Source of the DNA: Acidobacteriota bacterium
GTDB lineage: Bacteria; Acidobacteriota; UBA4820; DSQY01
DNA: 50,028 nt
Direction: 5' to 3'
Assembly (NCBI GenBank): GCA_021813555.1
Contig: JAKAKG010000062.1
Coordinates: 1 to 50,028 of the forward strand
A model generated the notes under the pieces. The model was not told the origin of the DNA. It searched no databases and was given only the letters and a program-made list of their open reading frames with translations. This document shows, one piece after another, positions 4,085-21,126 of the stretch; within the stretch, counting starts at the first letter, position 1, and each line of letters opens with the position of its first letter. Position numbers and translations under genes: made by a program.

Positions 4085-5647
4085 TCACCGGTCGTAGGCC
4101 TGGAAAGCCACCACGTTGCTCCTGTAGTCGAAGTAGATGGCGAAGGGGTCCAGGATGTTGCGGCCGAGGAGGCCGTAGGTCGCGATGTTGGTGTCCTGGG
4201 GAATCTCCATGACCTGGCACGGGGAGAGCTTGAAGCGGGCGGGACCTAGCCAGAGGGTCACGCCGTTGGCCTGTCCCGAAAGGGCCGCCCCTGACAGCCC
4301 CGAAGTGTGCTTGGACTGGGCCGCGCGGTTGATATGGACGCCCAGCTCCTCAGCGTACTGGCCCGCGATGAAGGTGGTCCACGCCCCCGTGTCCACGAGA
4401 AAGCTCAGCCCCGCCCGCTCCTGGACTTTCACCTCCACGTAAGGTTTGCCGCTGAACCACAGGGACTTCACGGAGAAGGACCCGCCCGGCATGGCTATTT
4501 CAGGCTTGGTTCCCGTGGGATAGAGGGTCACCTTGCCTCTGCGGCGGTCGTAGAGAACCCCGTGCGCCGAAAAGAGGGACAAGGGAATCAAGCCGCCCGT
4601 CTCCTTCCAGAAGTCGTTGTTCTCTTCGATGACCATGGCGGGCACGTTCTTCATGGAGAACCCGCCGATGGACAAGGCCCTGATCAGCACCCAGGAGCTC
4701 TTTTGTGGACCCTCGTAGCCGATGCCGAGATAAGAGGCCGCGGAGACCGGCTGGAGGCCCAGGTCCTTCACCACGTCCTTGGTCACGAGCACGGTGTCGG
4801 CGCCTGAATCCAGGAGCATGGGCCTCTCTTTGGCTCCGTTGAAGGACACGGGCACGACCACGCGCGAGGAGGTGGTCATCTCGGCTGTGGAGTCTAGGTC
4901 CCAACTTCCCCACTGGAGGGCGGAGAGGCTTCGAGTCTCGCTCTTCTCTTTGAGCTTGACGGTGATCGGGGTCTCGCCGGCGGGTGCTTCTTGAAAGAGT
5001 TCGCCCTCGCCGGCGGCGGCGAAAATCTGTTTGATGGATTCGTACTCGGCTTTGTTCTTGGGGTCCAAGGCCATGGCCTGATCCGCGTGTTTGATGCCCT
5101 CGGCCACGCTGGGGTTGATCTGAAGTGAATAGCGCAGCAGGACGGCGGGGGGCTCGGGCCACCTCGCCAAGCCTTGGGCCACCAACTGCCGCGCTTCGAT
5201 TTCTTGTCCCAGGGTCATGAGGGTACGGGCGCTCTGCCGGTAGGCGAGGCCTGCCCAGTCCTTGTCAGGGCAGCCGTAGAGGGCGCTCCATGCCTGGATA
5301 GCCTGGGGGAACATGCGTGCGGCGTAGGCACATTCGCCCACGCGGTAACGCAGGCCCGGCTCGTTGGGGTGCTGGCCCGCCAGCGGCACCGCGAGCCGAA
5401 GGGCGTCCATGGGCCGGTCCAGGCCCAGCAGGGCATCCACCCGAAACGCCTGGAAGTCCACGCTGGCCGGGTTGGCCTTGAGGCCAGCCTCCGCTGCCGC
5501 CAGGGCCTCCGCGTATTTGTCCTGCGCGAGAAGGGCGCGGACGGGCGCGGGATCGGGCTGCGCCGCGGGCTTGCCCGAGTCTTGTCCCCAGAGACACCAC
5601 GAAGATCCCACCAACAATCCCGCCAGAACCCACACACCTCGCTTCAT
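4085..5647 (-). CDS. Secreted TPR protein with two retropepsin-like aspartyl protease domains
   Basis: 520 aa. Signal peptide ([17 protein letters not shown]...), then TPR-like helical repeats (~35-215), then two aspartic-protease lobes. Each lobe has a catalytic motif: LLDSGAD with D280 and FLVDTGA with D419. Each also ends in a hydrophobic-Gly segment ([21 protein letters not shown]). Retropepsins work as dimers of one D(T/S)G each, so two in one chain could fold as an internal dimer (inference). The ATG at 5647 has AGGGGAGG at 9 nt; an ATG at 5656 abuts that Shine-Dalgarno and is less likely. A paralogue of the same architecture lies at 17610-19190. Substrate unknown. Confidence 0.8.
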
Positions 5648-17037: not shown

Positions 17038-17613
17038 ATGAAATCCCTTGAACTGTCCGATCTCCTCGACTTGGTCCAATACGAGAAGCAGCGCCAGGCT
17101 GTCCGCGCCGAAATGATGGAGATCAAAGCCCGCCGGCGCCTGCCCCTCAACGGGTTCCTCACCCTTCTGTTTGAAAACAGGCGCACGGTCTGGTATCAAG
17201 TGCAGGAGATGGCGCGCGCCGAGCGCATGGTTGAGGACTCGGCTCTTCAGGGCGAACTCGACACGTATGGGCCTCTGGTCCCCAACGGGAGCGAGTGGAA
17301 AGCCACCCTCTACATCGAGATCCCCGAAGAGGAATTGCTGAAGAAGATGCTTCCCACCCTCGTGGGCGTAGAACATAGCATTTTCGCCAGGGTTGGCGGC
17401 CTTGAAGTCCGGGCCGCGGGCGAAGAGGGCCGCAGCCGCGAGGACTACACAAGCACCGTGCACTACCTGACCTTCACGCTGCCCGCGGAAGCCATACGGC
17501 GGATCAGGGCCGGCGAGCCCCTGTACTTCGGGTCCAAGCACGCCGCGGCGGCCTGCGAGGTGGAGGCACCGGGCCTCCTGCGTGAAGAGCTGTCGGGCGA
17601 CCTGGACAGTTAA
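17038..17613 (+). CDS. DUF3501 family protein
   Basis: 191 aa, soluble, no signal peptide or metal motif. Family signature at the N-terminus: LLDLVQYEKQRQAVRAEMMEIKARRR split by RRLPLNGFLTLLFENRRTVWYQVQEM. DUF3501 has no known activity; it is recurrently encoded beside rubrerythrin and a CCG-domain Fe-S protein, as here, so a part in peroxide or redox handling is inferred from neighbourhood only. GGAG lies ~8 nt before the ATG. Its TAA overlaps the TAA of the convergent protease gene within a single TTAA tetranucleotide. Confidence 0.85.
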   Translation: MKSLELSDLLDLVQYEKQRQAVRAEMMEIKARRRLPLNGFLTLLFENRRTVWYQVQEMARAERMVEDSALQGELDTYGPLVPNGSEWKATLYIEIPEEELLKKMLPTLVGVEHSIFARVGGLEVRAAGEEGRSREDYTSTVHYLTFTLPAEAIRRIRAGEPLYFGSKHAAAACEVEAPGLLREELSGDLDS

Positions 17614-19190
17614 CGATCGTAGGCCTTGATGGCAAGGGCGTTGCCCGGGTAGTCGAAGAACACCTGGAAATTATCCAGGATGTCCCTCCCCACGATGCCG
17701 TAGCAGGGCATGGCGTCGTTCTGGCCGAGAGACGTCACCAGAACCGTGGGGAGCTGAAAGCGCGCGGCTCCCAGTTGGATCTCCACCTGTTCGGCGGTAC
17801 CGCTGGAGAACCCGCCGGACATCCCTCGGGAGTATTGGTTCGCATACTTGCCCGAGTTGACTTTGACGCCCAGCGTCTGGGCGAACTCGGCGGCCAGGTA
17901 AGTGGAGGACGCCCCCGTGTCCACGAGGCACGGGAGATTGGGCTGGCCTTTGATCTGCGCCAGGACGAAGGGCTGGCCGTTGAACCAGAGCGACTTGAGG
18001 GAAAAGAACGTGCCGCCCAGGACCGATTCGGGTTGGGTGCCCGCGGGGTAGAGGGTGAGCTTTTCGTGGCGGCGGTCGTAGAGAATGGCGTGGCGGCGGA
18101 ACATGGAGAGGGGCAGGATGCCGCCCAGCTCTTTCCAGAAGTCCGTATCCTTGTCGATGATCATGGCGGGAACGTTCTTGAACTCCAGCTCTCCCACGGT
18201 CAGCGCGGGCACGACCACCCACCCGGACTTCATGGCGCCCTTGTAGCCCAGGCCCAGATACTCGGCCGTGGCCACGGGTTTGAGCCCGAGATCTCTGGCG
18301 AACGCGCTCGTGAGGAGGACCACGTCCGAGCCGGAATCCAGAAGCATCCACTGCTTTTTGCCGCCCGCGGTTACGGGCACGGTCACGCGGGAACCGGAGG
18401 AAAGGGTGACGGCGCTGGCGTACTGGTCCTCCGTTCCCCAGGCTGGAATGTTGATGCGTTCACTCTTTTCCTTGATGGGAATCACGAGGGGGGCCGCTCC
18501 CGCGGGAGACTCCGCGAAGAGGCCGCCTTGGACCGACGCCATGATCGTCTTGAGGGCGCTCCAGTCGTCTTTGTTTTCCGGGGAGGAGGCGATGACGCGG
18601 TCGATGGTGCCCAGGGCCGACGCCGCGTCAGGGGCCGTTTCGAGGGCGAGGCGCGCCAGGGGCAAGGAGGGAGCCGCCCCTTTGGCCATGGCCTCCGCCA
18701 CGAGATTCCTTGCCTCCGCCACCTTGCCCACGGCCAGAAGTGCTTGAGCGCTGGCCCGGTAGCCGAGCAGGGACCAGGCCGGGTCGGGATTGGAACGGAG
18801 GGCGCTCCAAACCTGCACGGCCTGGGGGACCATGCCCTCCTGGAAGGCCGCCTGTCCCGCCAGAAAGCGGAACTGGGGCCGCTCGGGATGCTGGCCCGAT
18901 AGCGGCACGGCAAACCGAAGAGCCTCCATGGTTCGTCCGAGGCCCAGCAGCGCCTGGATCTTCACGGCGGCCTGGTCCAAGTTGCCGGGCTCCTTCTGCA
19001 AGATGAGCTCGGCCGCTGCCAGGGCTTCCGCATATTTGCGGCTCGCCAGGAGATCCGCCGAGGGCGCGGAGGCGGGAGCCGCCACAGGGGCGGGCCCGGG
19101 GGCTCCGGGAGTTCCAGTGACCTGTCCCCACGCGGCGCCCGCCACGGCCATCGCCATCACCGCCAAGCACCTCTTCACCGCGCTCCTCAT
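17610..19190 (-). CDS. Second secreted TPR protein with two retropepsin-like aspartyl protease domains
   Basis: 526 aa, paralogue of the protein at 4085-5647 with the same order: signal peptide, Ala/Pro-rich linker (25-48), TPR-like helices (48-215), lobe 1 with WMLLDSGSD (D285) and lobe 2 with CLVDTGAS (D424). Shared landmarks are the KEKSE strand, YLGLGYKGAMKSGWV, FWKELGGILPLSMF, LYDRRHEKLTLYPAGT, SLKSLWFNG and the C-terminal AYDR. Both lobes keep their catalytic Asp. GGAGGA lies 6 nt before the ATG. It is 46 bp downstream of the FHA-type sigma-54 activator on the same strand, with no terminator seen between them. Periplasmic or surface proteolysis is likely; target unknown. Confidence 0.82.
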   Translation of the reverse strand: MRSAVKRCLAVMAMAVAGAAWGQVTGTPGAPGPAPVAAPASAPSADLLASRKYAEALAAAELILQKEPGNLDQAAVKIQALLGLGRTMEALRFAVPLSGQHPERPQFRFLAGQAAFQEGMVPQAVQVWSALRSNPDPAWSLLGYRASAQALLAVGKVAEARNLVAEAMAKGAAPSLPLARLALETAPDAASALGTIDRVIASSPENKDDWSALKTIMASVQGGLFAESPAGAAPLVIPIKEKSERINIPAWGTEDQYASAVTLSSGSRVTVPVTAGGKKQWMLLDSGSDVVLLTSAFARDLGLKPVATAEYLGLGYKGAMKSGWVVVPALTVGELEFKNVPAMIIDKDTDFWKELGGILPLSMFRRHAILYDRRHEKLTLYPAGTQPESVLGGTFFSLKSLWFNGQPFVLAQIKGQPNLPCLVDTGASSTYLAAEFAQTLGVKVNSGKYANQYSRGMSGGFSSGTAEQVEIQLGAARFQLPTVLVTSLGQNDAMPCYGIVGRDILDNFQVFFDYPGNALAIKAYDR

Positions 19191-19236: not shown

Positions 19237-21126
19237 TCAGTCCTTCACTCCCGGGTGCCGCTCGATGAACCGGTAGAGGGTGCGCCTGGGAAGGCCGCTC
19301 AGCCGCGCGGCCTCGGTCACGTTTCCCGCCGCCCGATCCAGGACGGCCCTGAGGTAATCCTCCTCGAACCGCTCCAGGGCCTGCTTGTAAGGGAGCCCTT
19401 CGACATCGGGAGGCGGCGCCAGCGAGGTCCGGTCGGCGGCGCCCAGGAGCCGTCTCACGTCGGCCTCATCAATGAGCGCTCCCAAAGCGCTGGCCGACAG
19501 GTGGTTCACGGCGCTCTGGAGCTGCCGGACGTTGCCCGGCCAGGGGAACTCCTTCAATGCCATGAGGGCGCCCGGGGAGAACCCCGCGGCCGTCCCCGGC
19601 TTTTTGAAAGCTTTGGCCAAGAAGGCGCTGACGAGGACGGGAATATCGGCGGGGCGCTGGCGCAAAGGCGGCAGGGGGATTTCAAACGTCGTGAGGCGAT
19701 AGAAAAGATCCTCCCTGAAGGCCTTGCCGGCGATGGCCTCTCTCAGGTTGCGGTGGGTGGCGGCGATGAGGCGCACGTCCACCTGGCGCTCCTTGTCATC
19801 TCCGACGCGCTTGATGACGCCAAACTGGAGAGCGCGCAGGACCTTGGCCTGGAGAAGGAGGTCCATGTCGCCGATCTCGTCCAGGAAGAGGGTGCCCCCT
19901 TCGGCCTGTTCAAAGACCCCCGAGTGGTCCCGGTCGGCTCCCGTGAACGCGCCGCGCCGGTGCCCGAAGATCTCGCTCTCCGCGGTCCCCGCGGGCACCG
20001 CAGCGCAGTTGAGGGCGATGAAGGGCGCCGAGGCCCTCGCGCTGTGCAGATGGATCCACCGGGCGAAGATCTCCTTGCCTACCCCCGTTTCCCCAAGAAG
20101 GAGGATGGGGTAGGGCGAAGGCGCAGCATCCGCCGCGGAGGCCAGGGCCGCTTTCAGCGCGGCCGAATCTCCAAGAATCTCCCCCGGGTCGATGCGCCGC
20201 CGGAATGCCTCCGATATGGCCTGTTGGTGCCGGGCCTCCAGGTCCGCGCGGTTGGACGCCGACCGGCGGTCCCACAAGGCCTCAAGGAGGACGGTGGCCC
20301 AGGTGGGCCAGGATCCGAGGACGGTCATGGGGCCCACGGGATCGTGACACGGCTTGCCCCAGTCCACGTAGATCAGGGCGGCGATCCTTTTCCCAGCGAA
20401 GAGCGGATAGACGAGGATCTGGGCCCCCGAAAGGCCCTTCAGGCTCTGCCCCGGCTTGAGGACGTCCATGGGCGACCAGACGGGGCTGCCGAGCTTGATG
20501 GCCTCCTTGATGGTGCTCTGGCTCAGGAGCGTGGAACCCTCCTCCTCCGAGGACGCCTCATAGCGGCAGGACGTCTCCACGCGAGTCTGGAAGTGGCCCG
20601 CTTCGAGTTCAGACGTGGAGAAAAAAAAGACGCCCTCGGCCTCGAATTGGGTGCGCAAAGCCTGGGCGAGGCGCTGGTCCAGATCCTCCATGCGAGGATC
20701 CAGGCGGACGGCTTCCTCGATGAGATTGGGGATGCCCAGCTTGTTGTCGCACGTGGCGCAGGTGGTGTGTGCCACGAAGGGCACGGCGGCCATGGAAAGG
20801 GTCTCCTCCGAATCCTCGCCGCCCATTTCGGAAAGCGCCTCCAGCCGAAGGGCCACCTCTCCGAGCTTGATCACGTCCCCCGCGGTGAGGAGCACCTCTT
20901 CGTGCTTGACCCCGTTCGCGAAGAGGCCGTTACGGCTCTGAAGATCCCGTACGCGCCACCCTTCCTTTGAGAGAAAGATGCGGGCGTGATGGCGGGAGAC
21001 GGTGGGGGAATCCAGGACGAGGTCGTTGTCCGGGTCGCGCCCGATGAGACAAATGGGCTTGTTCAGGGGAAAGGCGAGGGGCTCCTTTCCCACCACCGTA
21101 AGCTGCATGGGCCCGGTCTGCGCCAT
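19237..21126 (-). CDS. FHA-domain sigma-54 activator (FHA-GAF-AAA+-Fis)
   Basis: 629 aa. FHA domain at ~23-97 with [19 protein letters not shown] and SRNGLFANG, which binds phosphothreonine peptides. A TTCATC cysteine pair is at ~121-126, and a GAF-like domain at ~140-285. The AAA+ domain has Walker A GETGVGKE (345-352) and an intact GAFTGA loop (392-397). A C-terminal Fis helix-turn-helix ([24 protein letters not shown]) ends the protein. This layout links Ser/Thr phosphorylation to sigma-54 transcription, as in myxobacterial FHA activators. GAGGAGG lies ~8 nt before the ATG. It sits between the hydrolase and the aspartyl protease on one strand. No -24/-12 element was found beside it. Confidence 0.9.

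Follow-up and report, generated by a model that had tools for sequence, protein, structure and literature searches.

Retropepsin-like proteases of bacteria are generally described as proteins with one D(T/S)G motif per chain that work as dimers. A sequence-only reading of the window (the whole 50,028-nt stretch of acidobacterial DNA analysed here) drew attention to a predicted secreted protein, copy 1, in which two such motifs follow TPR-like helices in a single chain, as if a pepsin-like internal dimer were attached to a protein-binding scaffold. Is the chain built in this way, is the arrangement unusual among bacteria, and would the protein be an active protease? The open reading frame, Pfam matches and an AF2 model bear out the arrangement, with DSG at D280 and DTG at D419 behind TPR-like helices, and the parts of the gene are as follows.

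4085..5647, minus strand: copy 1, TPR plus two-lobed retropepsin-like protein, stop included (open reading frame, motifs, Pfam, AF2)
5582..5647, minus strand: putative signal peptide, residues 1-22, KR then a hydrophobic helix (sequence read by eye)
5012..5548, minus strand: TPR helical domain, residues 34-212 (Pfam TPR_14/16/19; AF2 helices)
4493..4885, minus strand: lobe 1, residues 255-385, with D280-S-G and the psi-loop motif L353-I354-P355 (PF13650 at 265-342; alignment)
4808..4810, minus strand: codon of D280, putative catalytic Asp (motif and alignment)
4583..4585, minus strand: codon of P355, at the position of the psi-loop Gly in relatives (alignment)
4088..4480, minus strand: lobe 2, residues 390-520, with D419-T-G and G495-R496-N497 (second PF13650 match; PF00077 at 401-500)
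4391..4393, minus strand: codon of D419, putative catalytic Asp (motif and alignment)

The gene runs from an ATG at 5647 to a stop at 4085 and encodes 520 amino acids. The two PF13650 (Asp_protease_2) stretches score 85.4 bits (E 4e-24; gathering cut-off 24.3), and lobe 2 is also matched by RVP (PF00077) over residues 401-500; D280 lies in the context LLDSGA and D419 in LVDTGA. The TPR_14 score is above its cut-off (26.0 versus 23.5 bits) and is accompanied by helical hairpins, as expected of a TPR domain. The label "secreted" came from the N-terminal hydrophobic stretch read by eye, where AF2 places a low-confidence helix at residues 4-20, and the protein is probably exported, being either periplasmic or secreted; a third DSG, at residue 23 just past the putative signal peptide, is irrelevant. 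Copy 1 stands alone: on one side it converges with mscS and a gene for a membrane protein, on the other it diverges from typA/bipA, and the neighbours mscS and typA offer no clue to its substrate.

The arrangement of the lobes was examined with AF2, given an alignment of 43 protein sequences from the window and the loci. The full-length model (pLDDT 88.1, pTM 0.85) has 11 helices over residues 34-212 followed by two beta lobes, and a model of the lobes only is of similar quality (pLDDT 86.8, pTM 0.86). In Foldseek searches of the PDB the lobes alone match best to 9iy9 (TMq 0.72), next come HIV-1 protease dimers that are tethered or covalently joined in a single chain (TMt 0.66-0.71), and pepsins reach a TMq of 0.65; the full-length model returns the same top classes. 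As a tethered dimer has 198 residues, of which one lobe covers half, a single lobe would be limited to a TMt near 0.5; both lobes are therefore placed as in a clan-AA dimer, although the superposition across both is loose (rmsd 5-6 A). Such a placement supports, at the level of a predicted model, an internal dimer in which D280 faces D419, as the sequence-only reading had envisaged, and copy 1 very probably folds as a single-chain bilobed protein of clan AA.

Sequence profiles lead to the same relative. Plain phmmer of copy 1 against the PDB gave nothing useful, and profiles were required: a profile of the two lobes forms a single alignment through both lobes of 9iy9 (E 5e-20, with FDTGA and FDTGN visible); Ddi1 and the viral proteases are matched over one lobe only. 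The solved structure 9iy9, the best match to copy 1 in both structure and sequence, is an "Exported protein" and putative endopeptidase of Bacteroides fragilis which, like copy 1, has two retropepsin-like lobes in one exported chain, with two DTG motifs. Identity in structural alignments is 11-15%. The full-length model of copy 1 aligns 456 columns of 9iy9, compared with 264 for the lobes alone, and the N-terminal ~150 residues of 9iy9 may sit like the TPR part of the copy 1 model; unlike copy 1, 9iy9 has no TPR found by sequence and keeps Gly in both psi loops. Our literature search found no paper on 9iy9 and none describing the TPR plus two-lobed architecture, within a literature that took in few of the subscription journals. 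Copy 1 is thus an uncharacterised protein of a known bilobed kind, with 9iy9 as its solved relative.

On comparison with characterised families, both the fold and the catalytic motifs place the protein within clan AA: each half carries D[ST]G, and AF2 and Foldseek give two packed beta lobes. The clan's hydrophobic-hydrophobic-Gly motif is present in lobe 2 (LLG, G495) and broken in lobe 1, which reads LIP (P355). The pepsins of family A1, including the bacterial shewasins, are bilobed single chains with two Asp and psi loops (PMC2761423), features that copy 1 shares, but PF00026 has no match to copy 1 at E up to 1 (among its relatives it matches 5 of 43, weakly), and the two lobes of copy 1 still belong to one Pfam family, whereas those of pepsin have only motifs in common. 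MEROPS family A2 is defined by a single lobe and an intermolecular homodimer, and copy 1 has two lobes per chain. It therefore falls in neither A1 nor A2 as defined. Other profiles give weaker resemblances: NCBIfam TIGR02281 (clan_AA_DTGA) scores 48.9 bits, below its cut-off of 57.95, and the PecA/PE-PGRS domain (PF20729, PDB 4ehc), a bacterial aspartic peptidase of the clan with a PE domain where copy 1 has TPR, is matched weakly (E 0.001), the scores for PF20729 and NF038019 being well under cut-off. The G495-R496-N497 triad of lobe 2 is also found in HIV protease and other retroviral proteases.

APRc, RloA and RimB, characterised bacterial enzymes of the retropepsin-like type, have one lobe each and dimerise between chains (PMC4140852, PMC12239564, PMC11957791); like Ddi1, they share a family match with each lobe of copy 1 but are one-lobed and pair between chains. 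On this precedent the lobes of copy 1 could instead each pair with a lobe from a different chain, and the product would be a higher-order assembly with no internal dimer. We consider this improbable: in the single-chain model both lobes already overlay tethered dimers and pepsins, so that the Foldseek results on the lobes speak against assuming an intermolecular dimer by default; the chain of 9iy9 is two-lobed as well; and the two lobes of one protein degenerate together.

This joint degeneration appears when relatives are compared. Among 43 aligned relatives D280 is invariant and D419 is kept in at least 90%, and in a wider set of 69 two-lobed proteins 61 retain both D[ST]G motifs; loss of one Asp in most homologues, which would have told against the internal dimer, is thus not what is found. 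The remaining eight have lost one or both motifs, and five of them both (Fisher p 1e-5, a value that overstates independence because the losses fall partly in one clade). On the tree D419 was lost once, in that clade. Such a pattern would fit two half-sites of a single active site. Sequences of the two lobes also cluster by position, needing 8 changes on the tree compared with 48 when shuffled, which indicates that the fusion is old and stable and rules out a recent lobe duplication; the tree leaves room for one origin of the fusion or for more than one.

Besides copy 1, the source genome (3.3 Mb in 235 contigs) holds other members of the family, which are found in five places in all. The second copy implied by the name "copy 1" lies further along the window.

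17610..19190, minus strand: copy 2, same architecture, 526 amino acids, both Asp motifs, Pro in lobe 1 (open reading frame, Pfam, alignment)
19237..21126, minus strand: gene for an FHA plus sigma-54 activator protein, directly upstream of copy 2 with a 46-nt gap (gene order)

Copy 2 is 46% identical to copy 1. The start sites of both are backed by ribosome-binding-like sequences before their ATGs, AGGGGAGG 9 nt 5' of that of copy 1 and AGGAGG shortly 5' of that of copy 2. The order of activator gene and copy 2 is kept in three genomes of the genus (the source and two others), which hints that the two genes may be jointly expressed; in G001 (L060) a copy-1-like gene lies on the opposite side of the FHA/sigma-54 activator gene. 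A third protein, on contig C146, has both DTG motifs and the hydrophobic-hydrophobic-Gly motif in both lobes, and so by its motifs appears to have the most orthodox active site among the family members of this genome. A fourth member occurs at two contig ends, C13 (L004) and C73 (L006), and is probably a single gene that the assembly broke in two; its lobe 1 reads DSA, and its lobe 2 has neither DTG nor the Asp. Upstream of it, on the opposite strand, lies a D-Ala-D-Ala ligase gene, and downstream an SDR gene. Such neighbours also flank relatives with intact motifs in L063 and L064, so the catalytic residues of this locus seem to have been lost within the genus; L063 and L064 have two members, on either side of an SDR gene.

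All of these genes are under purifying selection. The dN/dS ratio is 0.18 for copy 1 overall and 0.14 in its lobes, 0.12 for copy 2 and 0.17 for the C146 gene, and that of the partial dead gene, against its relative in G002, is 0.09, a sign of strong purifying selection. The Pfam matches, the conservation and these ratios together rule out chance or artefact as the origin of the copy 1 pattern. At least this one paralogue of the genome is dead yet selectively maintained, perhaps as a binding or regulatory partner.

Two features escaped the sequence-only reading, the dead paralogue and the state of the lobe-1 psi loop. The latter was unexpected and makes the activity of copy 1 less certain than its motifs suggest. 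Pro replaces the Gly here in copy 1, likewise in copy 2, and altogether in 18 of 23 family proteins in the alignment; the C146 clade has Gly, as does every one of the 20 relatives from outside the family. This distribution can be explained by two changes on the tree, for example Pro arising at the stem of the family and being reversed in the C146 clade, and the substitution may alter the activity or specificity of copies 1 and 2. Both copies could accordingly be pseudo-proteases or strongly attenuated enzymes, in which the fold and the Asp motifs are kept as a peptide- or protein-binding scaffold and the TPR part is the main functional one. P355 is consistent with this, as is the clade of the sub-family that lost D419 outright and yet has the low ratio given above, since purifying selection there indicates that a non-catalytic use of the fold has been selected in the family. 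Nevertheless, copies 1 and 2 and their orthologues keep D280-S-G and D419-T-G while a sister clade tolerates their loss, which is unexpected for an idle dyad, and we regard an inactive or attenuated copy 1 as unlikely. On balance copy 1 is probably an active protease.

The role of the helical part can be weighed in the same manner. TPRs are common in periplasmic biogenesis and sorting systems, and it is only the TPR part that matches, weakly, the models for PrsT and PgaA; copy 1 might then be such a factor, with beta lobes that are structural only. Its NCBIfam PrsT/PgaA scores are far below cut-off and the catalytic motifs are conserved, and we give this very little credence. That the TPR domain docks a substrate or partner we hold to be an even call. 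Taken as a whole, copy 1 is likely to be an exported, single-chain, bilobed aspartic endopeptidase of clan AA with an N-terminal TPR docking domain. In such an enzyme the two fused retropepsin-like lobes would pair within the chain, with D280 and D419 meeting in the intervening cleft as a dyad that activates water, in the manner of pepsin or tethered HIV protease. The TPR superhelix would most likely bring a substrate protein or a partner to this cleft.

How unusual is the architecture? In 60 Acidobacteriota genomes searched with PF13650, the family is present in 39, and 42 of the 93 PF13650 reading frames carry two matches, ~140 amino acids apart, spread over 25 genomes (21 outside the family of the window proteins). 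The rule that bacterial retropepsins are one-lobed dimers, which derives from APRc, RloA and RimB, holds for those characterised enzymes but not for the Acidobacteriota, and the architecture is not exceptional for bacteria: two-lobed frames make up nearly half of the Asp_protease_2 frames in the phylum, and 9iy9 is in the PDB. Further proteins that join TPR to two retropepsin lobes, which the sequence-only reading proposed to look for, are numerous among the two-lobed proteins of the Acidobacteriota: of 43 close relatives, 34-35 have TPR_16 or TPR_14, and of 26 other two-lobed proteins 12 have TPR_16. Searching with the whole protein (E<1e-8) gave relatives in 28 of 297 genomes, and a narrower scan of a genome collection returned Acidobacteria-type MAGs only, one record being labelled Aminicenantes. 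Mobile spread was considered and rejected, there being no match in plasmids or phages.

Several variants were seen among the more distant relatives. One protein (L040:904-2235) has three DTG-type motifs per chain (209, 340 and 429), one distant genome (L026) has two two-lobed genes side by side, and distant two-lobed relatives in L041, L037 and L042 have lipobox-like N-termini (e.g. LAGC), which suggests possible anchoring as lipoproteins.

An origin of pepsin by duplication and fusion has long been proposed. We tentatively put forward, as a possibility at long range, that the Acidobacteriota hold an old, vertically inherited pepsin-like lineage that arose by fusing two retropepsin lobes of the same family, either as an intermediate or as an independent repeat of pepsin's duplication-fusion, and that this lineage, in the family studied here, gave rise to intact, Pro-altered and dead forms built on a TPR dock. 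The picture of single-lobed dimers, drawn from a few characterised bacterial retropepsins, misses the fused two-lobed chains that are common in this phylum. These chains are natural material for studying pepsin's descent from a dimeric ancestor, a question of long standing, and the presence of intact, psi-loop-altered and dead paralogues in one genome allows direct tests of the parts needed for catalysis.
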